A DNA stretch of 64,000 bases from a candidate division Zixibacteria bacterium HGW-Zixibacteria-1 (GTDB lineage Bacteria > Zixibacteria > MSB-5A5 > GN15 > PGXB01), in contig PGXB01000001.1 of the NCBI GenBank assembly GCA_002838945.1, forward strand, positions 1 through 64,000, written 5' to 3'. A model generated the notes under the pieces. The model was not told where the DNA came from. It was given only the letters and a program-made list of their open reading frames with translations, and ran no database searches. The translations under genes were made by a program, and so were the position numbers. This document shows, in pieces, positions 6,934 to 21,208 of this stretch (the first letter of the stretch is position 1; each line of letters opens with the position of its first letter).

Positions 6934-7497
6934 GTGAGTAAAGAAAAAAGCAGTGAATTAGCATCTTTGGTCAACCGCTGTCTTGCAGGAGATGCCCGGG
7001 CCTGGAGTGAATTGGTTCGTCGCGTGAATCCAATAATCCATGCGATTTGCTATGAAATGCGGCTCTCTCGTGACGAGCGCTATGATATTTTTGGCCAGGT
7101 TCTTCTTTTATTGTTGAAGAATCTTGAGAATGTAAAGTCCCGTGACAGCCTGGTTAGCTATGTTGCGACCATGACCCGCCGGGAGATTCGTGAGCTTACA
7201 CGTAAGTCTAATTATATCAACCATATGCATAAATCAATCGTGGATGAAATTTATTCCCGAGCGATTCCGACTCCGGATATTGATATGGAAATTGCCCAGG
7301 ACAGCGAGGCGCTTTTAAAGGCCATGGCAAAACTGCCCCGTCTTTGTCATGACTTATTGACGGCCCTGTTTTTTGACACCGACAAGCCAAGCTATAAGGA
7401 ACTCTCCCAACGCCTTGGGATACCGGTGGCCTCAATTGGCCCGACCCGGGAGCGTTGCTTGAAAAGAATGCATAAGCTTTTGGATAAAAAGAAATGA
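6934..7497 (+). CDS. ECF-like RNA polymerase sigma factor, module copy 1
   Basis: The 187-residue product has the two domains of a small sigma-70 family factor. Region 2 covers about residues 10-90 and includes Ala-Gly-Asp-Ala-Arg-Ala-Trp-Ser-Glu-Leu. Region 4 covers about 130-185, with Tyr-Lys-Glu-Leu-Ser-Gln-Arg-Leu-Gly-Ile as the helix-turn-helix start. Translation starts at GTG with no Shine-Dalgarno sequence; the paralogue at 12829 starts the same way with the same first three residues (Met-Ser-Lys). It begins a four-gene unit with a partner protein, a TPR-CHAT protease and a subtilase. I infer that it directs transcription of this unit or of a stress regulon and is held by the next gene product. 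Confidence 0.88.
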   Translation: MSKEKSSELASLVNRCLAGDARAWSELVRRVNPIIHAICYEMRLSRDERYDIFGQVLLLLLKNLENVKSRDSLVSYVATMTRREIRELTRKSNYINHMHKSIVDEIYSRAIPTPDIDMEIAQDSEALLKAMAKLPRLCHDLLTALFFDTDKPSYKELSQRLGIPVASIGPTRERCLKRMHKLLDKKK

Positions 7498-7552
7498 AAT
7501 TTTTGGTATCAAAATCGGGTTTTGTTGCTCTTTAGGTTGATGGGGGAATGGT

Positions 7553-8143
7553 ATGAAAAAGGAAAATGATAAAATTGAGTTAATGCTGGATTTCCTGAGA
7601 GGTAATCTCACCGCCGAGAAGCATCGGGAGACAGAAAGGCTGATCAGTGCCGACCGCGGCCTGATCGGATTATTTTCCGTAGTCAAGGGACTCTTCCTTG
7701 AGGGGCAGAAGGCGGACTGGAACCAGTTACAGGATTCAACTCTGAAGCTGGCCACCCGGCTGTTTGACGATTATCAGAAAAGCAAAAAAATAAGCCGGGT
7801 CCATTATGGTATTACCGTCTTTGATTCCATGATGCTGCCATTGCCGGAGGGGGTCAGACCGGCTACGGTTGACAGCAGGAGGTTAAAATACAAGGTCGGC
7901 GAAATGGATCTTGAGATTTCATTGTATCCGGTATCGACCAGTTCATATGAACTAATCGGGCAGGTTTACAATCTTGAAACTGAGGGCGGCTTAACGGTGC
8001 GACTGCGGTCCGGCAAGCATGAATATCGAGAGGCTGCTGATCAATTCCATCTCTTTCGATTCGTGAGAATTCCGGTGGCCAGGTATGTCCTGGATTTGCT
8101 GGCAAAAAACAGCCGGGTTGGGACGGTGGAACTGCAACTATGA
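7553..8143 (+). CDS. Sigma-factor partner protein, module copy 1 (putative anti-sigma or CHAT substrate)
   Basis: The 196-residue cytoplasmic protein has no signal, membrane segment or zinc-binding cluster. The N-terminal part is helical. The middle holds Pro-Leu-Pro-Glu-Gly-Val-Arg-Pro-Ala, conserved in the paralogue at 13448. The C-terminal part, with Leu-Ile-Gly-Gln-Val and a Phe-Arg-Phe...Pro-Val-Ala...Tyr pattern, looks like a small beta-sandwich of the carboxypeptidase-regulatory type. It lies between the sigma gene and the CHAT protease gene and overlaps the latter as ATGA. By position it could be an anti-sigma factor or a regulated protease substrate; the sequence alone does not prove either. 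Confidence 0.7.
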   Translation: MKKENDKIELMLDFLRGNLTAEKHRETERLISADRGLIGLFSVVKGLFLEGQKADWNQLQDSTLKLATRLFDDYQKSKKISRVHYGITVFDSMMLPLPEGVRPATVDSRRLKYKVGEMDLEISLYPVSTSSYELIGQVYNLETEGGLTVRLRSGKHEYREAADQFHLFRFVRIPVARYVLDLLAKNSRVGTVELQL

Positions 8144-10915
8144 TTGAACTGCCGCAAATAATCAAACTTTCCGATCGCGCCGCGCTGGAAAAATTTATTG
8201 CGACCAGGTATGCCGGCGATACTTATAAGTTTATTCAGGATATTGACATAAGCATCAATAGTCTGCTTAAGACTGATTTCAATGAGGCCTGGCGATATAT
8301 TCAAAGTGTCGATAGAGTTTTCCATCATCTGGCGGCAGAATTCGAACCGCGCCGACTGGCTATGATAGGTCGATATTATGTATATGTCGGAGAGAACAAA
8401 AAAGCCCTGAAGTATTATTTGAAGGCGATCGGCCTGTTCAAGAAAGCGGGCAGCGCCTATGGAGTCGCCCGGCTCGGCAAATCGCTTATAGAAATCTACA
8501 GCAAGCTGGGGAATCATAAGGAAGCGCTGGAAATAGGCAAGTCTTCGCTGCGGTATTATCAAAAAAAGGGAATGGAATTCGACACTGCTCATCTGCTTAA
8601 TAACATTGGTATTGTGCTTTATCGCATGGATAAGCATGGATAAGCATCGATTGGCGCTGAGATATCTCGATAAAGCCAAAAAGATCATGCAGCAGTATAA
8701 AAGTTTTCAGCTTGCCTATGTGGAGCTGAATCGGGCCAACGTTTTGTTCGAAATGAACATGATCAGGAAGGCCCGCGGTTTTTATGAAAAGGCGGCGGCG
8801 ATTTATCATAATAATGGCATGCATGTAGGTGAAAACAAGGCCAACTATGCCCTGGCCTTTATTTTGTTTTTTGAGGACAGGTTCACCGAATCAATCAGGC
8901 TCTTCGAAAAAGTATATGAGAAATCAAAGGAGCTCGCCGATCCGGTGGGTGCGGCCAATGCCCTGCTTGATATGGCCGAAATTAATATACAGCTAACCCA
9001 GTACAGTACGACGATAATGCTTGCCGATCAAATAATCCCTGAATTTCACAGGCTTGGCCTGATAAATGAGGAAGCCCGATCTTACTATTTTGCCTCCGTT
9101 GCCCGGATTAAGTTAAAGGATTTTGATTTGGCCGCCACACAATTAAGAAGGGCGGAGCATCTTTTCAAAAAGGAAAATAATCAGTTTTGGCTGGGGATGG
9201 TCAATGCGGCAAAAAGCCGGCTATACCGGGCGCGAGGACGCTACAAGCAGGCTCTTCAATATGCGGCCGACTCGGGAATATCCTATGCCAGAAGCGGTCA
9301 TGAACGGCATCGGCTGGATGCCGAGATTATGACTTTTGAGACGGTGCTTGCATCGGGAGATTACGAACGAGCAATTAAATTGACGGTCCCACTGTTAAAG
9401 CGCAGACTGACGAGTCATCAAAAGCATAACCTTCGTTTTCTGATTGGTAAATGTTATTACCAAAAGGGGGATTACTCCTCGGCTCTGAAGGAATTCAAGG
9501 CGGCCGTCAAAATAATCGAGAAGATGTTAAAAGGACTGTACCCTGATGAAATCAGATTTTTCTTTGTCATGGACAGGTATGAAAGCTATCAAATGATGAT
9601 TGACTGCCTTCTCAAACTTGGGCGTGTGGAGGATTCATTCCTGAGTAATCTGAGAGCTCTGGAGGTAATTAATCATCGTACGACCCATGAAACCGAAACC
9701 GGACGGGAAATATCGCCGGAGTTGATCGAAAAAAGGAACAATTTGCGGGCGGCATTGAAGAAACTGAACCAGTCAACCAAGGGTGGTCAGCGTGGTGTTG
9801 AAAGTGTGACCACTTATAATTCACTGGAACATAAATTATGGTCGAACGAGAGAAAGATCAGGACAATTGTATATCCGGAGAGGGAGTATCTCGGCCCGGA
9901 CGACTTTTATCAGGGCCGGGATATATATCAATACATTGAAAGTGAAGAAACTATTGTCAGCTTCTTTTCATCGAATGAAATGACCGGGGCTTTTTGTGCT
10001 TCAGGGCAAAAGGTTCAATTTATAAAGTTTGCTATACTGCCGAAGGAACTGGATATTTTACTGAGGAAGCTGCATTTCATATTTGAGAACGCTGTATTTG
10101 GGCAAAGGGATGTTGACCGTTCATACAAGATATCCGAGCATTATCTCAATATTATTTATCAGAAAATAATCGAACCGCTGCTTTCATCCATACCGGGACA
10201 ACATGTCATTTTTGTCGCTGATGGCATCTTTGGCCAGATACCATTTATGGCTCTGAAAGATGGTCAGGGGCGATATATAAAAGACCGATTTAGAATAAAC
10301 ACCATTATCAATCCACAGGATTTGAAAAACAGATCCGGAATTTTAAAGAATCTTAAGAGCAAACGCAACGCTGTTTTTGCCGTATCATCCGACTTGTTGC
10401 CGCTGATTGAGATAGAGGCCCGCCAGATTAAGAGTATTTTTCGAAAATCGCGCCTGTTTATCGATGACAGGGCCAATTGTATGAATTTAACAAATGAATT
10501 AAAGGAGGCTGATGGGTTTTTGCATATTGCGGCTCACGCATCAAGATCATCCGAAAATCCTTTATTTTCCCGAATATTGATGAATGATGGGCCGTTTTTC
10601 CCGTTCGATCTTTTTCAATCGGGTGTCAAGGCCGAATTAGTCACGCTTTCTGGTTGTCAGACCGCGGCACCGGGTCTGTACTACGGCAACTCGTTCAGTT
10701 TGGCCAAAGCTTTCTACCAAGCCGGGAGTCATCATGTTTTGGCAACTTTGTGGCCGGTCTCTGATAAGCTGAGTATGCTCTTTATGATAAACTTTTACGA
10801 GACTCTGGCTGATGTGGGGAATGTTTATCAGGCGTATCAAAGTGCAGTCGATCAAATTATCGACATCACTGATAATCCTGCATTTTGGAGTTCATTTGTT
10901 TTATTGGGAACATAG
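8140..10915 (+). pseudogene. TPR-CHAT caspase-like protease, module copy 1, frameshifted
   Basis: The gene is read in two frames: 8140-8643 (167 codons) and then a frame open from 8606 to 10915. The break is a perfect 10-bp tandem duplication, ATGGATAAGC at 8626-8635 and 8636-8645. Removing one copy restores a single 921-residue protein, matching the intact 918-residue paralogue at 14035-16791. The N-terminal half is TPR-like. The C-terminal CHAT domain keeps its putative dyad: a His in Ile-Ala-Ala-His-Ala-Ser (codon at 10535) and a Cys in Leu-Ser-Gly-Cys-Gln-Thr (codon at 10655). The downstream part could restart at the ATG at 8636, giving a CHAT protein without its first TPRs. It may be a mutation, a phase switch or an assembly error. 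Confidence 0.85.
8626..8645 (+). repeat. 10-bp tandem duplication that breaks the CHAT gene
   Basis: Two adjacent copies of ATGGATAAGC lie inside the coding region. In the paralogue the matching position has a single copy of the corresponding Met-Asp-Asn-Asn codons. The extra ten bases shift the frame and create a TAA at 8641-8643. Slipped-strand replication can both make and remove such a repeat. Confidence 0.9.
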
Positions 10916-10930
10916 TAAGGAGAGTATATC

Positions 10931-12379
10931 ATGCGAAAAGTCAGATATTTGGTAAGAGGCGCCTTTGTCTTTCTTTTTATCCTTTTGATATTTTTGACGA
11001 TTCAGAATTCATTCGCCGTTAATGAAAATAAAAACCTATCACATAAGGCATCCGTTCCTAATCAGGTTATTTTATGCCTGGAAAAAGGACGTTCGGCCCA
11101 CGAATTTTTGTCGGACATCAGGGGAAAAGTCATCAAAGATTTGCCTCGACAAAATATCCTGCTGATTGATTTCCCCGGCAATACGCCGGTGGAAAAAGTG
11201 TCAGAAGCGTTTGGGCGAAGAGGTGGCGTCGTCTTCGCACAACCGAACTATCTATGCGGTTTGCCTGAAATAAATACTCAGGATGATTATCTCCCTGACG
11301 CGAACAACCCGGTCTTTATAGCCGGTATCAGTCCGGGGCCGTATTATAATCAACAGGCGACCAATAGCAGCGGTGCCGACTCGGCCAATTTATTGTCGAC
11401 TGGAACCGGTGTTATTGTGGCGGTTATTGATAACGGCATTGATTTCAATCACCCTCTGTTCTCTGGTTTGGCCGACAGCACGGGATATGATTTTGTCGAT
11501 AATGATGGAGATCCCTCGGAGGAAACGGGCGACATGCTGGGGCACGGAACCTTTGTTTCGGGATTGATTAAATTAGTGGCGCCGGATTGCAGCCTTATGC
11601 CGTATCGGGCCTTTGATGAAAGCGGTATTGGTGATTCATACGCGATTGCCCAGGCTATTTACCGGGCAATTGATGACAGCGTGGATATTATCAATATGTC
11701 ATTCAATATGTATATATCCAACTCCGCGGTGGAGACAGCCGTTGCAGCGGCCCGTCAGGCAGGCATAACCATGGTGGCTTCCGCCGGAAACGACAGTTGC
11801 TCGGTCACATCTTATCCAGCCGCCTATGCCGGAGTAATTACGGTCGGGGCCATTGACTCTTTGGATTATCTGGCCGGATATTCCAATTATGGCGCCAATC
11901 TGGATGTTGTCGCGCCGGGTGTTATGGTATACAGCGCGTTACACACTCAATATGAATCCGACTGGGGTTACTGGAGCGGAACTTCATTTGCGGCACCCCA
12001 GGTAAGCGGCGGTTGTGCCTTAATACTGGGGCTAAAGCCGTCAATGGAGGGGGATAGCATGGAAGTTTTCATCAGAGAGACCGCCGAAAATGATCTATTA
12101 TGGGGAACGGTCGTGCCCCATGATTCTTTATATGGTTATGGTCGTGATGATGTTTTTCGTTCCGCAATCTGCCTTTGCCGGGGCGATGTGGATCATTCCG
12201 GACTAATCGACTCGCTCGATTATAATTATCTTATAAATTATTTGAATTACGGAGGCCCGGCGCCGATTCCCATCAATGAAATCGGTGACGTTAATTGCTC
12301 GGGAATCATAAATAATCTGGATGTTTCGTATTTGATCAATTATTTGAACCATAGCGGACCGCCGCCCTGCTGCCAATAA
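10931..12379 (+). CDS. Exported subtilisin-like protease with dockerin-like tail, module copy 1
   Basis: The 482-residue product has a signal peptide (about residues 1-30) and a propeptide-like domain to about 110 ending in Ala-Gln-Pro-Asn-Tyr. It then has an S8 catalytic domain with Asp167 (Val-Ile-Asp-Asn-Gly), His205 (Gly-His-Gly-Thr) and Ser352 (Gly-Thr-Ser-Phe-Ala-Ala-Pro), so the triad is complete. The last 70 residues are two dockerin-type repeats, each Gly-Asp-Val-Asp/Asn followed by a Leu-Ile-Asn-Tyr-Leu helix. It follows the CHAT gene by 15 bases with an AAGGAGAG ribosome site and is followed by a strong terminator. It acts outside the cytoplasm, possibly docked to a cohesin-type partner. 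Confidence 0.93.
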   Translation: MRKVRYLVRGAFVFLFILLIFLTIQNSFAVNENKNLSHKASVPNQVILCLEKGRSAHEFLSDIRGKVIKDLPRQNILLIDFPGNTPVEKVSEAFGRRGGVVFAQPNYLCGLPEINTQDDYLPDANNPVFIAGISPGPYYNQQATNSSGADSANLLSTGTGVIVAVIDNGIDFNHPLFSGLADSTGYDFVDNDGDPSEETGDMLGHGTFVSGLIKLVAPDCSLMPYRAFDESGIGDSYAIAQAIYRAIDDSVDIINMSFNMYISNSAVETAVAAARQAGITMVASAGNDSCSVTSYPAAYAGVITVGAIDSLDYLAGYSNYGANLDVVAPGVMVYSALHTQYESDWGYWSGTSFAAPQVSGGCALILGLKPSMEGDSMEVFIRETAENDLLWGTVVPHDSLYGYGRDDVFRSAICLCRGDVDHSGLIDSLDYNYLINYLNYGGPAPIPINEIGDVNCSGIINNLDVSYLINYLNHSGPPPCCQ

Positions 12380-12420
12380 AAGCAGCTACTTTCGTTTTGC
12401 GTTCTTTACTCATGGGACAA

Positions 12421-12446
12421 GCCCGGCCTGACGGCCGGGCTTTTAT
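12421..12446 (+). terminator. Intrinsic terminator of module copy 1
   Basis: GCCCGGCC and GGCCGGGC form a perfect 8-bp GC-rich stem around TGAC, followed by TTTTATT. It lies about 40 bases after the subtilase stop codon. Confidence 0.9.
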
Positions 12447-12608
12447 TGCGTTTTTTGGGAGAAAAATGCATAAAAAACCGCAATTATGAAAATATTTGTA
12501 TTTTTATTGAGCTTGCCCCGCTCTAATAAAATATGAAAGGCCATATCGGGCTCATTCCAGAACCATAGGTATGGTCTTCGAATAGTCTCTCTTTTATGTG
12601 GTTAGTTA

Positions 12609-12645
12609 CAGGAGATGAGTCTTTTGATTCATCTCCTGATTTTAT
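12609..12645 (+). terminator. Terminator-like hairpin without an upstream gene
   Basis: CAGGAGATGAGTC and GATTCATCTCCTG pair over 13 positions with one wobble around a TTTT loop, followed by ATTTTAT. No protein gene lies between this hairpin and the terminator at 12421, so it may end a small RNA or stop read-through into module copy 2. Confidence 0.6.
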
Positions 12646-12828
12646 ATCAACAGGGGTGCCGCCGGAATAAAAACAATATTTGCATTTCGTTCTTGGAATT
12701 TTCCATTCCGTTTATTTCATTATATAATTGGAGACTATCGGCAATATGCCGCACGCGCACAACAACATGAGATAACTCGTGACTGATTGCCGCAATTTTT
12801 TAGATTTGGCTAATTCGAAAGTAAATCA

Positions 12829-13413
12829 GTGAGTAAACCGGAAGATAACTATATATCGAATCTGGTAACAGGTTGTCTTGAGGGTGAAAAGCAATCATGG
12901 TCGGAATTGATCAGGAGAATAACGCCCCTTGTTTTTTCAATCTGCGGCCGGATGAAGCTTTCCAGGGAAGACAGTTACGATATTCATGGGCAGGTATCCT
13001 ATCTTCTGTGGAAAAACCTCGGAAATCTCAGATCGTCCGACAAGCTGTTGTCCTATGTCACGACTATAACGCGGCGGGTGATTTATGCCCTGATGCATAA
13101 ATCGAAGATACTGCAGAAAGTCGAGGATGCTCTGGCGGATGATTTGTTTTTATCATCACCGAAACAACCCGATGATATTTATGAAGAATCAGAGAGGCAT
13201 GAAGCATTGATGCACGCGATTGCACAACTTCCGCCAAAGGAATATCGGTTGATCCGGGCACTCTTCTTCAGTTCCGAGAATCTATCCTATGAGGAAATCG
13301 CGCAACAACTTGGAATCCCGGCTTCATCGATCGGCCCGAGCCGAATGCGGTGTTTTAAAAAACTTTATCGGATATTGAAACGTAATGAATTGTTTTTAAA
13401 GTATTTTTTGTAA
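12829..13413 (+). CDS. ECF-like RNA polymerase sigma factor, module copy 2
   Basis: The 194-residue protein is a clear paralogue of the factor at 6934: region 2 with Leu-Ser-Arg-Glu-Asp-Ser-Tyr-Asp-Ile-His-Gly-Gln-Val and region 4 with Tyr-Glu-Glu-Ile-Ala-Gln-Gln-Leu-Gly-Ile followed by Ser-Ser-Ile-Gly-Pro-Ser. It also starts at GTG without a Shine-Dalgarno sequence, so the unusual start is conserved. The last ten residues are extra compared with copy 1. It heads the second, intact module. The promoter specificity cannot be read from sequence, but the shared upstream block suggests that the two factors may control their own operons. Confidence 0.88.
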   Translation: MSKPEDNYISNLVTGCLEGEKQSWSELIRRITPLVFSICGRMKLSREDSYDIHGQVSYLLWKNLGNLRSSDKLLSYVTTITRRVIYALMHKSKILQKVEDALADDLFLSSPKQPDDIYEESERHEALMHAIAQLPPKEYRLIRALFFSSENLSYEEIAQQLGIPASSIGPSRMRCFKKLYRILKRNELFLKYFL

Positions 13414-13447
13414 ATTTTTGGCGCTCTATATATAATGAGGAGGCAAA

Positions 13448-14038
13448 ATGCAGAATGATGTCGACAAGATTGAACTTCTTTTGAAATTCAATCGAGGCGA
13501 ACTCACTGGTGATGCCGAAAAAGCGGTAAGGGAAGCTCTGAAAAATGATCCTGAATTAAGGATCATAAATCAACTTCTTCAGGATATTCAGATTGACACC
13601 GGGAAAGGGGACTGGAGTCAGATACTGAATTTCGCATCGGAGTCGGCATCCCGAATGTTTGACGATTTCATGAGAAATCGCCGCGAAGGGGCCGAGGTTT
13701 ACGCGGTCCGGACATATGATTCCAAACTGACACCGCTCCCGGAAGGGGTTCGGCCGGCGGCGGTCGATTGCCGGCGCCTTAAGTTCAAGATCGGCGATTA
13801 TGATCTTGAATTGTCGCTTTACCCTGTGTCCACCGACTCCCGTGAGATTATCGGGCAGGTACACAAGGCCAAATTTGATAAACCGCTCGAAGTCAGGCTA
13901 AAATCCGGCAAAAGATCCTATTCGGTGACAGCTGATCGTTTTAATCTTTTCCGATTCGAGCGGGTTCCGGTCGCCGAGTATAAAATGACATTATTATCAG
14001 ACGGGCAGATAATTGGCATCGTTGATTTATCCTTATGA
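13448..14038 (+). CDS. Sigma-factor partner protein, module copy 2
   Basis: This 196-residue protein has the same length as its paralogue at 7553 and shares Asp-Lys-Ile-Glu-Leu near the start, Pro-Leu-Pro-Glu-Gly-Val-Arg-Pro-Ala in the middle and Leu-Phe-Arg-Phe near the end. It is soluble, with a helical N-terminal part and a beta-rich C-terminal part. A GAGGAGG ribosome site lies just upstream, and the stop overlaps the CHAT gene start as ATGA. The tight coupling to both a sigma gene and a protease gene supports a role as anti-sigma factor or protease substrate, which remains an inference. Confidence 0.7.
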   Translation: MQNDVDKIELLLKFNRGELTGDAEKAVREALKNDPELRIINQLLQDIQIDTGKGDWSQILNFASESASRMFDDFMRNRREGAEVYAVRTYDSKLTPLPEGVRPAAVDCRRLKFKIGDYDLELSLYPVSTDSREIIGQVHKAKFDKPLEVRLKSGKRSYSVTADRFNLFRFERVPVAEYKMTLLSDGQIIGIVDLSL

Positions 14039-16791
14039 TTGTCTTATCTCAGATACTGAAGCTCTCCGGTAAGGAAGCCTTCGAGAAATATCTTGAATCC
14101 GATTATGGCGGCGATAACGTCGCTTTTCTTGATGATTTGGATAAGAGCATCAATCGGCTTATTCGAACCGATTTGAAGGAGGCCGGTGACTTCATTGATG
14201 CCGTCAAGGGCATTTTTAAATATCTTCCCCGCCGGTATCAGGCGCGATTGAAGGCCATCCAGGGCCGGCATTGTCATTGGACCGGTGAATATGCTCCGGC
14301 TCTTCGCCATTATCTGGCCGCCCGCCGATTGCTTGAAGAGCAGAAGCAACCGGAGGGGATTGCGAGGCTCGGTAAAGGACTGATGGATGTTTATATGTAT
14401 CTGGGCCGGTACGAAGAAGCGTTGCAGGTCGGCCGAAGATCTCTGTCATATTTCCGCAGGAAGCAATTGAGCAATGATGCGGGCCAGGTTCTGAATAATA
14501 TCGGCAATGTATATCATCGCATGGACAACAACCGCATGGCCCTGAAATATTATAATATGGCGAGGGAAATTTTCGCCCGGGCCGGGGGCGTGCCTCTGGC
14601 TATTGTCGAGTATAATCGGGCCAATATTTATACCAACATGGACAGGCTGGACCAGGCGGAAAAGCTGTACCGCGCCTCGGCCGAACTTTATCACGAAAAC
14701 GGACTGGAAATAGCCCGGAATCAAGCGCTTTATTCGATTGCCTATCTGCATTTTCTGCGGGACAAATATACCGATGCCATCAAGGCTTTCGAGGCGGTGC
14801 ATGATGATCTCATCCGCCTCGGCGACCGGAAGTCGGCGGCCGCCGCCATGCTGGATATGGCCGAGATCGACATTCAACTGAATCAATACGGGTCGGCGTC
14901 GATGATAGCGGATCAGATTATTCCTGAGTTTAGAAAACTGGGCATGAGATACGAGCAGGCCAAGGCCAGCTATTTTTCCGCCGATGTCAGGATCAGACTG
15001 GGGGACTACACCCAGGCCTCGAGTCGATTGAAGAAAGCAGAGACACTTTTCTCCAGGGAAAAAAATCTGCTCTGGCTGGGCATGATTAACATGTCCCGGA
15101 GCAAACTAAATATAGCGCGGAAGCATTATTCCACGGCGGTTACGGCCGCGGATGAGGCGGCCCGACTTTTTGCCCGGACCGGGAATGAGAGAAAAAAGCT
15201 GGATGCCGAGATTGCCCGGCTGGAAGGATTCACGATGGCGGGCGAATCGCCGATGGCTTTGAAACTTGCCGGAAAACTATCCATCGAAAAACTGGCCGGG
15301 TATCAATCCTATAATTTGAATTACCTGATCGGCCAATGCCATTTCCGTTTGAGCCAATATGAAACAGCCTTAAAGTATTTTCGCAAGGCTGTCGGCGCCA
15401 TTGAAAAGATGCTCAAAGGGCTGTATCCGGATGAGGTCAGATATTTCTTCATTTCTGACAAGTATGATTGCTATCGTATGGTCGTTGACTGCCTTTTGAA
15501 ACTTGGCCGGACCGATGAATCGCTTCAATCCAATTTCTCGGCTCTGGAACTGATAAACGGAAAAATCGATAGGGATAGAGCAATCTCATCGCAAATTCCC
15601 TCCCCGTTAATCGACCGGAGAGAACAACTGCGGGCGGCCTTGAAAAAAATCAGCCAATCTCCCAAAAGCGGCCAGCGCGGGACCCCGACCTCCTATTATT
15701 CGCTGGAGCAACAACTCTGGTCGAACGAGAGAAAGATCAGATCGATTCTTTACCCCAATGAAATCGTGGCCAAAAAATTGATCCGCACGGAATATAATAT
15801 TCGGGATTTTCTTCAGGATGATGAAACCGTCATCAATTACCTTGAGAACGATTCCGGTATCGGCGCCTTTTGCGTAACATCCGGGAGAACCGAATTTGTG
15901 GAACTGCCGGTTTCGCGGTCGGACATGGCGCTGATACTCCGGAAATTGCATTTTATTTTTGAATCGGTCGTTTCCGGAATAACCGATGCGGATGAAACCG
16001 GACAGATTTCCGAATCATATCTAAGAGAACTTTATGACATCCTTATTGCGCCTTTAAAAGCAAGAATCGCGGGCAAAAAACTGATTATTGTGGCGGACGG
16101 ATATTTCGGGCAGATTCCATTTAATGCCTTGAAAGACGGCAGCGGTAATTATCTCATAAACGAATATCAGGTTTGTCTGGCGGTCAATCCCGGGGATATT
16201 TGTCATCGACGCCGGACGCCGCCCGACATCACGAATAAACAGCATGCGATTTTTGCGGTTTCATCGGACCTGCTGCCGGCGATATCGATCGAAGCCAGGC
16301 AGATAAAAAATATTTTTGAAGGTTCGCATTTGTATTTGGACAGGGAAGCCAATCGGGCCAATCTTCTCCGGGAGGCGGCGAAGGCGACCGGTTTTATTCA
16401 TATTGCGGCGCATGCCTCGCGGGCATCGGAAAATCCGCTTTTTTCAAGAATTCTGATGGGCGACGGGCCTTTTTTCCCGTTTGACCTGTTTCAATCCGGT
16501 TTAAAAGCAGGGTTGGTAACGCTTTCCGGTTGCCAAACGGCCGCTCCCGGATTATATTATGGTAATTCATTCAGTCTGGCCAAAGCTTTCTACCAGGCGG
16601 GAAGCAGATATGTTCTGGCGACCTTGTGGCCCGTGGCCGATAAGGTAAGTACATTGTTTATGATCAAATTCTATAAATCACTGTCAGAGAAAAAAGAAAT
16701 TTTTAATGCCTACAACAGCGCCGTTTCGGAACTGGCCGAAGTCACCGGCAACCCGGCCTTCTGGAGTTCTTTCGTGCTGCTGGGCATTTAG
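14035..16791 (+). CDS. TPR-CHAT caspase-like protease, module copy 2 (intact)
   Basis: The 918-residue protein has about 450 residues of tetratricopeptide-like helical repeats, a linker, and a C-terminal CHAT domain. The putative catalytic dyad is His793 (Ile-Ala-Ala-His-Ala-Ser) and Cys833 (Leu-Ser-Gly-Cys-Gln-Thr), 40 residues apart as usual in CHAT proteases. It ends in Phe-Trp-Ser-Ser-Phe-Val-Leu-Leu-Gly, a typical CHAT end. It has no signal peptide, so it acts in the cytoplasm. In known CHAT proteins such as separase relatives and the type III-E TPR-CHAT, the TPR part holds the protease inactive or presents substrate. The adjacent 196-residue protein is the obvious substrate candidate. 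Confidence 0.92.
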   Translation: MIVLSQILKLSGKEAFEKYLESDYGGDNVAFLDDLDKSINRLIRTDLKEAGDFIDAVKGIFKYLPRRYQARLKAIQGRHCHWTGEYAPALRHYLAARRLLEEQKQPEGIARLGKGLMDVYMYLGRYEEALQVGRRSLSYFRRKQLSNDAGQVLNNIGNVYHRMDNNRMALKYYNMAREIFARAGGVPLAIVEYNRANIYTNMDRLDQAEKLYRASAELYHENGLEIARNQALYSIAYLHFLRDKYTDAIKAFEAVHDDLIRLGDRKSAAAAMLDMAEIDIQLNQYGSASMIADQIIPEFRKLGMRYEQAKASYFSADVRIRLGDYTQASSRLKKAETLFSREKNLLWLGMINMSRSKLNIARKHYSTAVTAADEAARLFARTGNERKKLDAEIARLEGFTMAGESPMALKLAGKLSIEKLAGYQSYNLNYLIGQCHFRLSQYETALKYFRKAVGAIEKMLKGLYPDEVRYFFISDKYDCYRMVVDCLLKLGRTDESLQSNFSALELINGKIDRDRAISSQIPSPLIDRREQLRAALKKISQSPKSGQRGTPTSYYSLEQQLWSNERKIRSILYPNEIVAKKLIRTEYNIRDFLQDDETVINYLENDSGIGAFCVTSGRTEFVELPVSRSDMALILRKLHFIFESVVSGITDADETGQISESYLRELYDILIAPLKARIAGKKLIIVADGYFGQIPFNALKDGSGNYLINEYQVCLAVNPGDICHRRRTPPDITNKQHAIFAVSSDLLPAISIEARQIKNIFEGSHLYLDREANRANLLREAAKATGFIHIAAHASRASENPLFSRILMGDGPFFPFDLFQSGLKAGLVTLSGCQTAAPGLYYGNSFSLAKAFYQAGSRYVLATLWPVADKVSTLFMIKFYKSLSEKKEIFNAYNSAVSELAEVTGNPAFWSSFVLLGI

Positions 16792-16805
16792 GAAGGATGA
16801 TTGAA

Positions 16806-18221
16806 ATGCACCGCCAAAGAAACCTCCCTTATTTGCTTGTAATAGCGTTCCTTGTAATTATCGCCCTGGCGCCATTGCAGCAGACATTTTCTCAGGACAA
16901 GATTCAGAATCATGTGGTCTTGAAGATTCAGAAGGGCGCTCTGCTCGCTCCGATTCTGAGCGATCTTGATGCTGTCGCAATCGACACGATTGCCGGCAAA
17001 AGCACTTTTCTTGTCTATTACAGCGACCCGCTGCCGGTTGACAGTGTGATCGACAGACTTGAAGCAAATCCCAGTGTAATATTTGCCCAGCCCGATTATT
17101 TATGTGCGATTCCGGAAATAGGCCAGATCAGTCAATCCTTCCCGGATGAAAACCGGCCTATTTTCATTAACGGAGTCAGTCCCGAACTTTATTATGATCA
17201 GCAGGGAGCTATCCTGGTCAGTGCCGATTCGGCGAATTTGATTTCGACCGGAGTCGCGGTGACGGTGGCGGTTATTGACAATGGCCTGAAATTCAATCAT
17301 CCTCTTTTCGAAAACTCAATATCTGCAAACGGTTATGATTTTGTTGACAAAGACGATTACCCGGCGGAAGAGATTGGCGGGCTGCTGGGTCATGGGACAT
17401 TTGTCAGCGGGATTATCAAGCGTATTGCTCCCGGCTGCATGATTATGCCGTTGCGGGCTTTTGATGCCGAAGGACTCGGCAGCAGTTTCCAGGTCGCCGA
17501 AGCCATCTACTGGGCGATAAGCAACGGCGCCGATGTCATCAACATGAGTTTCAGCACCAGCGAGCCGGATCCGGTCATTTTTGATGCCATCAACAGCGCG
17601 CTTGAAGCCAATCCGGCGCTGGCGGCATCCCCGGGCAATGACGGCCAGGAAATGGCCACCTATCCTTCGGCCTATGCCGGTGTAATTGCGGTTTCCGCTA
17701 TTGACAGTCTGGACTACCTGGCTTGGTTTTCCAACTATGGTAATTATATCGATGTTTGCGCGCCGGGCGTCAATATATACAGTTCTCTGGCCGGCGAGTA
17801 TGAATGGGGCACATGGAGCGGCACCTCATTTTCGGCGCCGATTGTAAGCGGTGTTTGTGCCCTGGTAATGAGCATCGACCCCAATCTGAACAGCTATTCG
17901 GTCAGGAATCTGATTAAATCGACTGCCGAGACCGAACTTTATTGGGGGACGGTTACGATCAACGATCCGATGTACGGCTGGGGGCGGGTTAATGCCTTTG
18001 CGGCGGTCTGGGATCTTGTTGTCGGTGATGTCGATATGCTTGGCGGGACAAATGTCCTGGATGTCAGCTATTTATCGCGCTTTGTGTATCGCAACGGACC
18101 GCCTCCGAAACCGCAAACGATGCGAGGGGATGTTGATCTTTCCGGCTCGATTGATACTGTCGATATTAACTCTCTGATAGATCAAATATATCGAAACGGA
18201 AACGGCGCACCACAGAATTAA
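16806..18221 (+). CDS. Exported subtilisin-like protease with dockerin-like tail, module copy 2
   Basis: I chose the ATG at 16806 because the GGAAGG ribosome site is nine bases upstream of it; the ATG at 16797 touches that site. The 471-residue product has a signal peptide, a propeptide-like region ending in Ala-Gln-Pro-Asp-Tyr, and a full S8 triad: Asp158, His196 and Ser341 (Gly-Thr-Ser-Phe-Ser-Ala-Pro). The C-terminal 65 residues are two dockerin-type repeats beginning Gly-Asp-Val-Asp. It parallels the subtilase at 10931 in position and architecture. It would be secreted, so its link to the cytoplasmic CHAT protease is probably regulatory, through the sigma factor. Confidence 0.92.
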   Translation: MHRQRNLPYLLVIAFLVIIALAPLQQTFSQDKIQNHVVLKIQKGALLAPILSDLDAVAIDTIAGKSTFLVYYSDPLPVDSVIDRLEANPSVIFAQPDYLCAIPEIGQISQSFPDENRPIFINGVSPELYYDQQGAILVSADSANLISTGVAVTVAVIDNGLKFNHPLFENSISANGYDFVDKDDYPAEEIGGLLGHGTFVSGIIKRIAPGCMIMPLRAFDAEGLGSSFQVAEAIYWAISNGADVINMSFSTSEPDPVIFDAINSALEANPALAASPGNDGQEMATYPSAYAGVIAVSAIDSLDYLAWFSNYGNYIDVCAPGVNIYSSLAGEYEWGTWSGTSFSAPIVSGVCALVMSIDPNLNSYSVRNLIKSTAETELYWGTVTINDPMYGWGRVNAFAAVWDLVVGDVDMLGGTNVLDVSYLSRFVYRNGPPPKPQTMRGDVDLSGSIDTVDINSLIDQIYRNGNGAPQN

Positions 18222-18574: not shown

Positions 18575-21208
18575 ATGAAAAGAGTAACACTTCTGTTTCT
18601 ATTTACCGCATTTATAATCACCGGTACAGCTTTTGCGGCCGATATCATCAAAGTCGACCGTGACTTTGGTCCGTCATTTTATGGCTATGCCCAGAATAAA
18701 TGCCTTGTTGTCGTCAAGGACGGGACTCCTTCCATGTATGCTCAGTCCCGTGCCGGTCTGGCAATTACCGGAAATGCAGCCATTGATGAAATCGCCAACA
18801 ATTTTAAGGTCCACGGTTTTGCCAAGCAGTTTCCGGCGGCCGATCAGGCCAGCCTGACGCATCCGTCGGACAAGCCCCTGACCCGTCATTATATCGCCGA
18901 ATTCCCTCACGGTAATCTTGACGCCGTCATGGAAGCCTACAGCCGTCTGCCCTTTGTCGAGAAGGTCGAACCGATCGGTCTGTACTACATGAGTGCCAGC
19001 CCGGTTGACCGTTATTATGACGATCCCCCGGAAACATTCCCCTATGACCAGTGGCATTACTGGGATACCTACGGTATCAGCGCCGATCTGGCCTGGGATA
19101 AAGAAACCGGCGATCCCAATGTTGTGGTGGCCGTAATCGACGGCGGTGTGCGGTATTATCACTACGATCTGGGCGGCACCAATCCTCCCGGACCGACTGA
19201 TAACAGCACCAACGGTAATATCTGGGTTAATAACGGAGAAATTCCCGGAAACGGTATCGACGATGACAACAACGGTTACATCGACGATGTCGTGGGCTGG
19301 GACTTCGTAACGACTTCATCGCAGTGCAACGATGTTGACTGTACCACGGCCGACAACGATCCGGCCGACTGCGCCGGTCATGGAACGCATGTTGCAGGAA
19401 CAATTGCGGCCATTACCAATAATGACCCCACCTTCGGCGTGGCCGGCATTGCCGGCGGCTGGAACGACGGCACCACCAACTTTACTTCCAACGGCGTAAA
19501 AATCATGTGCCTTCGTGCCGGTTGGAAAAGCCCGCTGGGCGGCTTGATGAGTATGGATTACTGCGCCCAGGCGATGTATTATGTGGCGACCATGGTCGAT
19601 AAGGGTGTCAATGTCGCCGCCATTAACTGTTCCTGGGGCTCCTCAAGTTATATCGGACCCGCAGTCAACGCCGTTCTGGCCCGCGACGTCATGGTTATTG
19701 TTGCCGCCGGTAACGACAACACCAGCAACTATGACTATCTTGGCGGACGCGCTGATTGCATGGATGTCGGCGCCACCGATCAGAGCGGGAACCCGGCCAG
19801 TTTTTCGACCTATGGTTCATGGGTTGATATTGCCGCTCCTGGTGTCGAGATCCTGAGCACCTATCACAATTCGGATGATCCGACCGGCGATTATATCGCC
19901 CTGATGGATGGAACCTCGATGGCCTGCCCGCATGTGGTCGGCGTGGCGGCTCTCCTGGAATCATACAATCCCGCCCTGACCGGTCCCGAGAAATTCGCCA
20001 TTATCACCGATCCGAATAATGTCAAGTGGTACAACCCGACCAAGTATGTCGGTGTCGGCATTATTGATGCCCGCAAGTGCATCGATGCGGCCGGGCCGGC
20101 CTGCGATGTGACCGCCGATTTCAGCGGCACACCCACCTCCGGCTGTGCGCCGATGACGGTTAATTTCACCGACCTGTCCACCGGACCGGTGACATCGTGG
20201 AGCTGGACTTTCGGCGACGGCGGAACTTCGGCCGCCGCGAATCCGTCCCATCAGTACACCACCGCCGGAACATATACGGTCAGCCTGACGGTTACCTCAG
20301 CCGCCTGCAATGATACCGAAACCAAGACCGGTTATATAACCGTATCCAGTGCCGTGACGGCTAACTTCTCAGGAACTCCGACCTCCGGCAATGCCCCGTT
20401 GACGGTTAATTTCACCGATCTTTCGACCGGCAACCCGACCGCCTGGAGCTGGACATTCGGTGACGGCGGAACCGCAGCGGTCAAGAATCCTTCGCATCAG
20501 TACACCACCGCCGGAACCTATACCGTAACACTGACGGCCTCCAACGCTTGCGGTTCGGATATTGAAACCAAGACCAACTATATCACTGTTACCGAACCCG
20601 TTGGTTGTGTGATGCATGTGCAGGACATTCAAGTAATCAGAATCCCCTCCGGCCGCAATTGCACCGGCCGCGCCACCATCTATATTTATGATGCATATAA
20701 TCAGCCGGTTTCAAATGCCACTGTTTATGTAAGTGTCACGGGAAATACGACCGAATCGAAGACGGGCACGACCGCTTCGGACGGATCGGTTGTTATAACC
20801 ACGCTCAAGACCAAGAGTTGCAGCGGCGAGTGGTGCTTTGAAGTCACCAACGTGACTCATGCCACCTGCACTTACAATTCATCGGCCAACCTTGTGACCA
20901 AGTCATGCGAGAGCGGCGATGTTTATAAACTGCAGAACGGCATTATTCCATACGAATTCAGTCTCAGCAACTACCCCAACCCGTTCAATCCGACCACGAC
21001 TATCGAGATGAGTCTGCCGGTTGCTTCCGAATGGAATATCAATATTTACAACATCGCCGGCCAGAAGGTCGCCGGATTCAACGGCTTCAGCAATGCCGGT
21101 GTTGTTTCGATCAACTGGGATGCCTCGCAGCAGGCTTCCGGTATTTACTTCATGAAAGCCACGGCTGGTGAATACACCGCCGACAAGAAAATGGTTTTGA
21201 TGAAATAG
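18575..21208 (+). CDS. Secreted subtilisin-like protease with two PKD domains and C-terminal sorting module
   Basis: The 877-residue protein has a signal peptide (residues 1-22), a propeptide-like region, and an S8 domain with Asp189, His269 (Gly-His-Gly-Thr-His-Val) and Ser448 (Gly-Thr-Ser-Met-Ala-Cys-Pro). Two tandem PKD domains (about 510-685), each with Trp-Ser-Trp-Thr-Phe-Gly-Asp-Gly-Gly, come next, then a cysteine-containing beta domain. The C-terminal module of about 80 residues has Tyr-Pro-Asn-Pro-Phe-Asn-Pro and ends Lys-Met-Val-Leu-Met-Lys, as in type IX-like or FlgD-like sorting domains of FCB bacteria. It stands alone between terminators. It is not a third copy of the sigma/CHAT module: it lacks the dockerin and is much longer. 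Confidence 0.93.
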   Translation: MKRVTLLFLFTAFIITGTAFAADIIKVDRDFGPSFYGYAQNKCLVVVKDGTPSMYAQSRAGLAITGNAAIDEIANNFKVHGFAKQFPAADQASLTHPSDKPLTRHYIAEFPHGNLDAVMEAYSRLPFVEKVEPIGLYYMSASPVDRYYDDPPETFPYDQWHYWDTYGISADLAWDKETGDPNVVVAVIDGGVRYYHYDLGGTNPPGPTDNSTNGNIWVNNGEIPGNGIDDDNNGYIDDVVGWDFVTTSSQCNDVDCTTADNDPADCAGHGTHVAGTIAAITNNDPTFGVAGIAGGWNDGTTNFTSNGVKIMCLRAGWKSPLGGLMSMDYCAQAMYYVATMVDKGVNVAAINCSWGSSSYIGPAVNAVLARDVMVIVAAGNDNTSNYDYLGGRADCMDVGATDQSGNPASFSTYGSWVDIAAPGVEILSTYHNSDDPTGDYIALMDGTSMACPHVVGVAALLESYNPALTGPEKFAIITDPNNVKWYNPTKYVGVGIIDARKCIDAAGPACDVTADFSGTPTSGCAPMTVNFTDLSTGPVTSWSWTFGDGGTSAAANPSHQYTTAGTYTVSLTVTSAACNDTETKTGYITVSSAVTANFSGTPTSGNAPLTVNFTDLSTGNPTAWSWTFGDGGTAAVKNPSHQYTTAGTYTVTLTASNACGSDIETKTNYITVTEPVGCVMHVQDIQVIRIPSGRNCTGRATIYIYDAYNQPVSNATVYVSVTGNTTESKTGTTASDGSVVITTLKTKSCSGEWCFEVTNVTHATCTYNSSANLVTKSCESGDVYKLQNGIIPYEFSLSNYPNPFNPTTTIEMSLPVASEWNINIYNIAGQKVAGFNGFSNAGVVSINWDASQQASGIYFMKATAGEYTADKKMVLMK

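Follow-up and report, generated by a model that had tools for sequence, protein, structure and literature searches.

TPR-CHAT proteins have been connected with anti-sigma factors in more than one bacterial system. In type III-E CRISPR (Cas7-11, Csx29, Csx30, CASP-sigma), for example, the TPR-CHAT protease Csx29 cuts Csx30, the anti-sigma factor of CASP-sigma, which consists of an N-terminal sigma-binding part and a C-terminal part recognised by the protease (PMC10028731). In Myxococcus xanthus, DdvS becomes active once DdvA, its anti-sigma factor, has been inactivated (PMC4374960). Here we describe a four-gene cassette that encodes an extracytoplasmic function (ECF) sigma factor, a partner protein of 196 residues, a TPR-CHAT protease and an exported S8 subtilase, in that order. 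It stands twice, head to tail on the + strand (6934-12379 and 12829-18221), in a stretch of 64,000 nucleotides (the window; contig PGXB01000001.1, positions 1 to 64,000) from a metagenome-assembled genome of Candidatus Zixiibacteriota (3.8 Mb, 82 contigs), and it is present in at least three phyla: Zixibacteria, Planctomycetota and Acidobacteriota.

The cassette resembles type III-E CRISPR in its ECF sigma factor, its two-domain putative anti-sigma protein and a TPR-CHAT protease of the same fold. It differs in having no Cas7-11, CRISPR RNA (crRNA) or CRISPR array and in adding a secreted subtilase, and its partner, about one third as large as Csx30, shows no detectable relationship to that protein. 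When the partner profile was compared with the PDB, no Csx30 chain was matched, a sequence non-match being weak evidence in itself. The lack of any CRISPR component, remarked upon in an earlier sequence-only reading of the window, was borne out: positions 1-26000 have no CRISPR-like repeat, and neither the cassette nor its set of fixed neighbours includes a Cas gene.

DdvA (8rot, 8rw5) shares with the cassette the linking of an ECF sigma factor's anti-sigma factor to TPR-CHAT, but it is a single transmembrane polypeptide, whereas the cassette encodes the TPR-CHAT protein and a predicted soluble partner separately and adds an FN3-like sandwich and a subtilase. Triads in Gemmatimonadota and Lysobacterales (L090, L118, L103) have the cassette's order of sigma, anti-sigma and TPR-CHAT; they differ in an anti-sigma factor that appears membrane-anchored and in having no subtilase in slot four. 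The CHAT proteins of these triads (L103, L090, L118) have a hydrophobic N-terminus, suggesting export. The zinc anti-sigma factors ChrR, RsrA and RshA are, as is predicted for the partner, soluble proteins with an N-terminal anti-sigma domain, encoded beside their sigma genes; the partner, however, ends in an FN3-like sandwich with an invariant Asp/Arg loop, and about half of the partners are without zinc ligands.

The neighbourhood of ECF54, a sigma factor group of Actinobacteria, was reported by Huang 2015 and Casas-Pastor 2021, as cited in a review (PMC8999054). It is described there as conserved, with carboxypeptidase-domain, subtilase and CHAT neighbours, and as lacking an anti-sigma factor. 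Compared by neighbour types, ECF54 and the cassette both place an ECF sigma gene near CHAT and a subtilase, and the sandwich of the cassette's partner is weakly carboxypeptidase-like. They differ in phylum and in that this carboxypeptidase-like partner carries a predicted anti-sigma domain, ECF54 being presented as a group without an anti-sigma factor. Given this report, the gene set itself is not wholly unknown, and the earlier claim that no described system has exactly this set goes too far. What is new is the predicted anti-sigma domain of the partner, the spread over three phyla, the invariant loop, a second subtilase and the link to DdvA.

The four-gene cassette and its spread

The locus comprises the following features:

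6934..7497, +, cassette 1 ECF sigma factor, 187 aa, GTG start (sigma70-ECF, 60.6 bits, cut-off 42.9)
7553..8143, +, cassette 1 partner, predicted soluble anti-sigma factor, helical domain and FN3-like sandwich (family profile)
8140..8643, +, cassette 1 TPR-CHAT, N-terminal TPR fragment, 167 aa, frame broken
8606..10915, +, cassette 1 TPR-CHAT, remainder with the other TPRs and the CHAT domain, 769 aa (CHAT 1.3e-41)
8626..8645, +, 10-bp tandem duplication ATGGATAAGC, breaking the cassette 1 TPR-CHAT frame (relatives intact)
10931..12379, +, cassette 1 exported S8 subtilase, fervidolysin-type propeptide and dockerin
12609..12638, +, terminator-like 13-bp stem-loop followed by a T-rich tail, between the cassettes
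12829..13413, +, cassette 2 ECF sigma factor, 194 aa (sigma70-ECF, 65.9 bits, NCBIfam)
13448..14038, +, cassette 2 partner, predicted soluble anti-sigma factor, helices 2-80, sandwich 87-195
14035..16791, +, cassette 2 TPR-CHAT, intact, 918 aa, His793/Cys833
16797..18221, +, cassette 2 exported S8 subtilase, weak dockerin
18575..21208, +, larger second subtilase with PKD domains and a type IX secretion system (T9SS)-type sorting tail, probable extra output gene

The same four genes thus occur twice in the same order, as had been read from the sequence, and in both cassettes the stop of the partner and the start of CHAT share an ATGA (8140-8143; 14035-14038). Identity between the cassettes is 43% for sigma, 43% for the partner, 50% for TPR-CHAT and 45% for the subtilase. 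TPR-CHAT of cassette 1 is split by the 10-bp duplication, which shifts the frame within the TPR array, and the second of the resulting open reading frames has an in-frame ATG at 8636 that overlaps the first one's stop codon. Relatives carry the gene as a single frame of about 920 codons; the break may be an error of assembly or a sign of gene decay, or the protein may be a split one. Given the terminator-like stem-loop, whose stem is the longest of a stem-loop scan in which the number of such sites was not above shuffles, cassettes 1 and 2 may be separate transcription units. Judged by their sequence relationships they are old paralogues, because each is closest to a different relative's module: cassette 1 to that of a same-genus genome (L042), cassette 2 to that of another genus (L037).

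Chance is ruled out as an explanation of the arrangement by two further copies in the genome and by the recurrence of the order across the phylum. The third cassette (contig 11, L008) again consists of sigma, partner, TPR-CHAT and subtilase, and its TPR-CHAT gene (7578-10333) has a broken frame too, close to seven consecutive A that come after ...ALKK. The fourth lies on contig 26 (L009), and its partner has the zinc motif HxxxCxxC. The genome has seven CHAT genes, four within cassettes and three outside. The gene immediately downstream of the contig 26 cassette, the one of zinc type, encodes a TIR-NB-ARC-TPR protein (732 aa, L009 12200-14398).

The sequence-only reading had named a gene set not conserved elsewhere among the findings that would refute it, and the set recurs in at least three phyla. 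A scan of Zixibacteria with the partner profile, at a threshold of 1e-5, was positive in 58 of 132 genomes. Counting only loci where the contig permits a verdict on the neighbour, sigma is directly upstream of the partner in 72/73 cases and CHAT directly downstream in 70/71, and S8 occupies the fourth place in 34 of 35 cassettes; an ATGA-type overlap is the commonest partner-CHAT junction (33 cases). The distance matrices of the four proteins are strongly correlated over 49 cassettes (Mantel r 0.87-0.91, with 0 of 999 permutations as high) and remain so among closer cassettes (r 0.70-0.83), species history not being factored out of any of these values. In one cassette (L177, G058:C2:520500-532000), an instance of natural rearrangement, sigma, partner and subtilase adjoin but TPR-CHAT points away from them on the opposite strand. 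The sole Zixibacterial cassette that has room for a subtilase yet has none (L210, G042:C1:2190500-2201700) is followed instead by a gene resembling that of protein-L-isoaspartate methyltransferase and by a series of small exported proteins similar to one another.

Outside Zixibacteria, cassettes were found in Phycisphaerales of the Planctomycetota (L105, L241), and the partner profile matches 23 of 297 genomes of Acidobacteriota. The full four-gene order is present in the acidobacterial loci L266-L269, L271 and L283, and S8 is missing behind CHAT in L270, L277 and L280. The claim that S8 is the fixed fourth gene holds for Zixibacteria and fails in Acidobacteriota; in that phylum and in Planctomycetota S8 may be absent or lie elsewhere. 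In one of the subtilase-less cassettes (L280:3946-5949), TPR-CHAT is followed by a protein with caspase (Peptidase_C14) and FGE-sulfatase domains. The cassette is absent from the CHAT plasmid loci of Azospirillum, Caballeronia and Nostoc that we examined, and the Streptomyces plasmid CHAT loci examined have neither sigma nor subtilase. A locus of Aureibacter combines sigma, a hypothetical protein of 237 aa and CHAT, with no subtilase.

The partner as a candidate anti-sigma factor

The identity of the partner was approached with a family profile (A7) built from 41 relatives. Against the PDB, A7 matches the anti-sigma factors DdvA (2.5e-4), RslA (3hug_B, 2.9e-4) and RsiW (9.5e-4) and, more weakly, ChrR (0.022) and RsrA (0.078), all of these matches falling inside the first 80 positions (5-78 for the top three). 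In addition, zf-HC2 matches 8 of the 41 members (best 5.2e-7), one of which exceeds the curated cut-off when tested singly, and NCBIfam anti-sigma models match up to 10. Genome scans with the partner profile also retrieve ordinary anti-sigma factors adjoining ECF sigma genes in other phyla. The partner is, therefore, a candidate soluble anti-sigma factor, for which sigma binding is inferred, and the earlier idea that the partner holds sigma appears well founded because its family carries a predicted anti-sigma domain.

The predicted structure of the partner comprises four helices (2-80) followed by a beta sandwich (87-195). A fold search that effectively covered the sandwich only (98-196) placed it nearest to FN3/Ig-like domains, with Z up to 7.9, in the range of common arrangements; the same search listed no match for the anti-sigma part, which, given that coverage, is not counter-evidence. 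The sandwich is also weakly CarboxypepD_reg-like in 12/41 members, below the Pfam cut-off. Sandwich-only relatives of the partner, which have no anti-sigma helices, occur in Acidobacteriota and Planctomycetota (L239/L245, L236/L244, L252), some of them beside CHAT or a subtilase, as in L239 and L252.

The zinc motif HxxxCxxC is present in 51 of 112 partners, including that of L009, and is missing from both window partners and that of L008. The window partners, on this sequence evidence, have a putative anti-sigma domain but do not belong to the strict zinc anti-sigma factors (ZAS). What does not vary is the loop between the two domains, in which Asp91 (104/104) and Arg102 (105/105) are invariant and Arg109 is kept in 101 of 105 proteins. 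Asp91 and Arg102 may pair structurally, or they may mark a site that a protease recognises.

The TPR-CHAT protease and the exported subtilases

In the model of TPR-CHAT (mean predicted local distance difference test score, pLDDT, 85), a TPR superhelix that spans about 500 residues leads into a CHAT domain (PF12770), which is far above the cut-off in both cassettes. Its best solved match is Csx29 (Z 26.9, 601 residues aligned, root-mean-square deviation 13.0); separases match with Z 24-26, the CHAT part alone aligning over 305 residues at a deviation of 2.9. The NCBIfam Csx29 model gives 19.7-21.1 bits on the window proteins against a cut-off of 300, and they belong to the same superfamily as Csx29 without being Csx29 itself. 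The catalytic pair proposed for cassette 2 is in place and conserved, His793 being kept in 56/56 and Cys833 in 54/54 module proteins with a readable site. The intact pair and the Csx29- and separase-like model are in keeping with the likeness to the type III-E protease that had been suggested from sequence.

DdvA provides a further connection. Its structure (8rot, a transmembrane anti-sigma factor of Myxococcus) is in the Foldseek list for the TPR-CHAT model and its N-terminus matches the partner profile, so that an anti-sigma domain and TPR-CHAT are joined in one chain of a characterised regulator. In the Gemmatimonadota and Lysobacterales triads the anti-sigma gene directly precedes TPR-CHAT, with sigma adjoining. 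DdvA and these triads tie anti-sigma function to TPR-CHAT independently of the window.

The S8 domain of the fourth protein is far above the cut-off in both cassettes, and its Asp/His/Ser triad is present. That this protein is exported, as previously suggested, is supported by the N-termini: in Zixibacterial cassettes that of S8 is membrane-spanning in 40 of 48 proteins, whereas no hydrophobic stretch of this kind occurs within the first 80 residues of the partner (0/76) or of CHAT (0/72). Sigma, partner and CHAT appear to be cytosolic and S8 exported, which matches the compartments that a sigma-release circuit needs. The subtilase is best read as an output, since, being exported, it cannot reach a cytosolic sigma factor; a role for it as the sigma-releasing protease was rejected as placing it on the wrong side of the membrane.

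A further subtilase starts within 1.5 kb beyond 14 of 59 cassettes (a count that includes 18575-21208 and also L180, probably a piece of a slot-four gene that is broken), against about 0.2 expected by chance from 18 S8 genes per genome, and most of these have a T9SS-type tail. The subtilase at 18575-21208, although beyond the range first delineated, probably belongs with the gene set. Dockerin is strong in the subtilase of cassette 1 (1.1e-11) and weak in that of cassette 2 (0.014). A cellulosome reading of this domain was rejected, as the whole genome (G000) has more than 100 dockerin matches and only two cohesins above the cut-off; dockerin is a common tag in the genome rather than a mark of the cassette.

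A proposed sigma-release switch and its alternatives

Taken together, these observations lead us to propose that each cassette acts as a signalling switch in the cytosol. In this scheme the N-terminal helical domain of the partner would keep the ECF sigma factor inactive; the TPR array of TPR-CHAT would sense a signal or ligand and thereby activate the CHAT cysteine protease; and activated CHAT would cut the partner, most likely near the conserved loop that joins its predicted anti-sigma domain to the sandwich. The freed sigma factor would then turn on secreted protease genes, namely the S8 of slot four and, often, an adjacent T9SS-tailed subtilase. What computation contributes to this proposal is the order of the genes, their conservation and joint inheritance, the anti-sigma domain recognised in the partner's family, intact catalytic pairs and the compartments in which the proteins probably reside; sigma binding, cleavage, the signal and the regulon would be added by inference. 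As a whole, we regard the switch as somewhat more probable than its being wrong.

Several observations weigh against this proposal. Searched singly, the window partners, which have no zinc motif, match no Pfam or NCBIfam family, and the profile matches establish an anti-sigma domain for the partner family rather than for the window proteins alone. Two of the four cassette TPR-CHAT genes of this genome are frame-broken, those of relatives being intact. In the acidobacterial loci L242, L243, L273 and L274 the order is CHAT-partner-S8, with no sigma adjoining the partner, and part of the gene set may work apart from sigma in some Acidobacteriota. Finally, a dyad search of the regions that precede sigma genes (up to 95 sequences, both pooled and split by partner type) found no shared promoter motif, no pair exceeding the shuffles; sigma self-activation and control of S8 are unsupported. 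The missing motif may reflect differing specificities of paralogous sigma factors, or the regulon idea may be wrong.

Among the alternatives, the one we take most seriously, while thinking it unlikely, is that the partner is both anti-sigma factor and sensor, responding to redox state or metal in its zinc forms and to a sandwich ligand otherwise. CHAT and S8 would then both be outputs of sigma, inside and outside the cell, and CHAT would not cut the partner. Release of sigma through a conformational change is established for soluble zinc anti-sigma factors (PMC8999054), nearly half of the partners have the zinc motif (51/112), and in the operon order CHAT and S8 come after sigma and the partner. 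Yet 61/112 partners are without the motif, the translational overlap and the DdvA fusion link anti-sigma to CHAT and not to S8, and a partner relative without the anti-sigma part still adjoins CHAT (L239). A more doubtful possibility, to which we give a small weight, is that TPR-CHAT is a scaffold or receptor that binds the partner and frees sigma by conformational change, its protease acting on some other target. TPR superhelices serve as binding platforms, and DdvA holds an anti-sigma domain and TPR-CHAT in a single chain; a pure scaffold, however, would have no need of the catalytic His and Cys that are kept in every readable module CHAT.

The remaining two explanations seem to us improbable. 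For ECF54, from the same neighbour types, direct degradation of sigma by CHAT or the subtilase, with no anti-sigma factor involved, has been proposed in the literature (PMC8999054). Its premise of a missing anti-sigma factor would fail for the cassette, whose partner family has a predicted anti-sigma domain, and the exported subtilase is unable to reach cytosolic sigma. Slightly less credible still is a defence or cell-death device in which triggered CHAT cuts a toxic or pore-forming target. CHAT proteases do act in type III-E CRISPR, and the TIR-NB-ARC-TPR gene (L009 12200-14398) adjoins one cassette, but the PADLOC matches amount to a generic subtilase model and weak hits for CHAT/TPR, none of the fixed members is gasdermin-like or a nuclease, and those members are a regulator and a secreted protease.

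Returning to the switch in which CHAT cuts the partner, it is tempting to speculate that TPR-CHAT proteins form a general class of cytosolic, signal-activated proteases, independent of CRISPR, whose cut in the conserved inter-domain loop of a soluble anti-sigma factor frees an ECF sigma factor, with the invariant Arg102 as the candidate site. Type III-E CRISPR would then have adopted a ready-made circuit, one that commands secreted subtilases in Zixibacteria, Acidobacteriota and Planctomycetota. We offer this wider generalisation tentatively, and think it more likely to fail than to hold.

If true, the proposed switch would point to a common type of circuit behind Craspase and DdvA, in which a caspase/separase-like protease cuts a soluble anti-sigma factor without CRISPR, and it would correct the view of the ECF54-type neighbourhood as one without an anti-sigma factor. 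It would also name a family of about 100 so far unnamed partner proteins and provide small two-domain substrates for studying how CHAT proteases choose and cut their targets. For the uncultured Zixibacteria, it would be a first hint of how these bacteria control their large set of secreted proteases.

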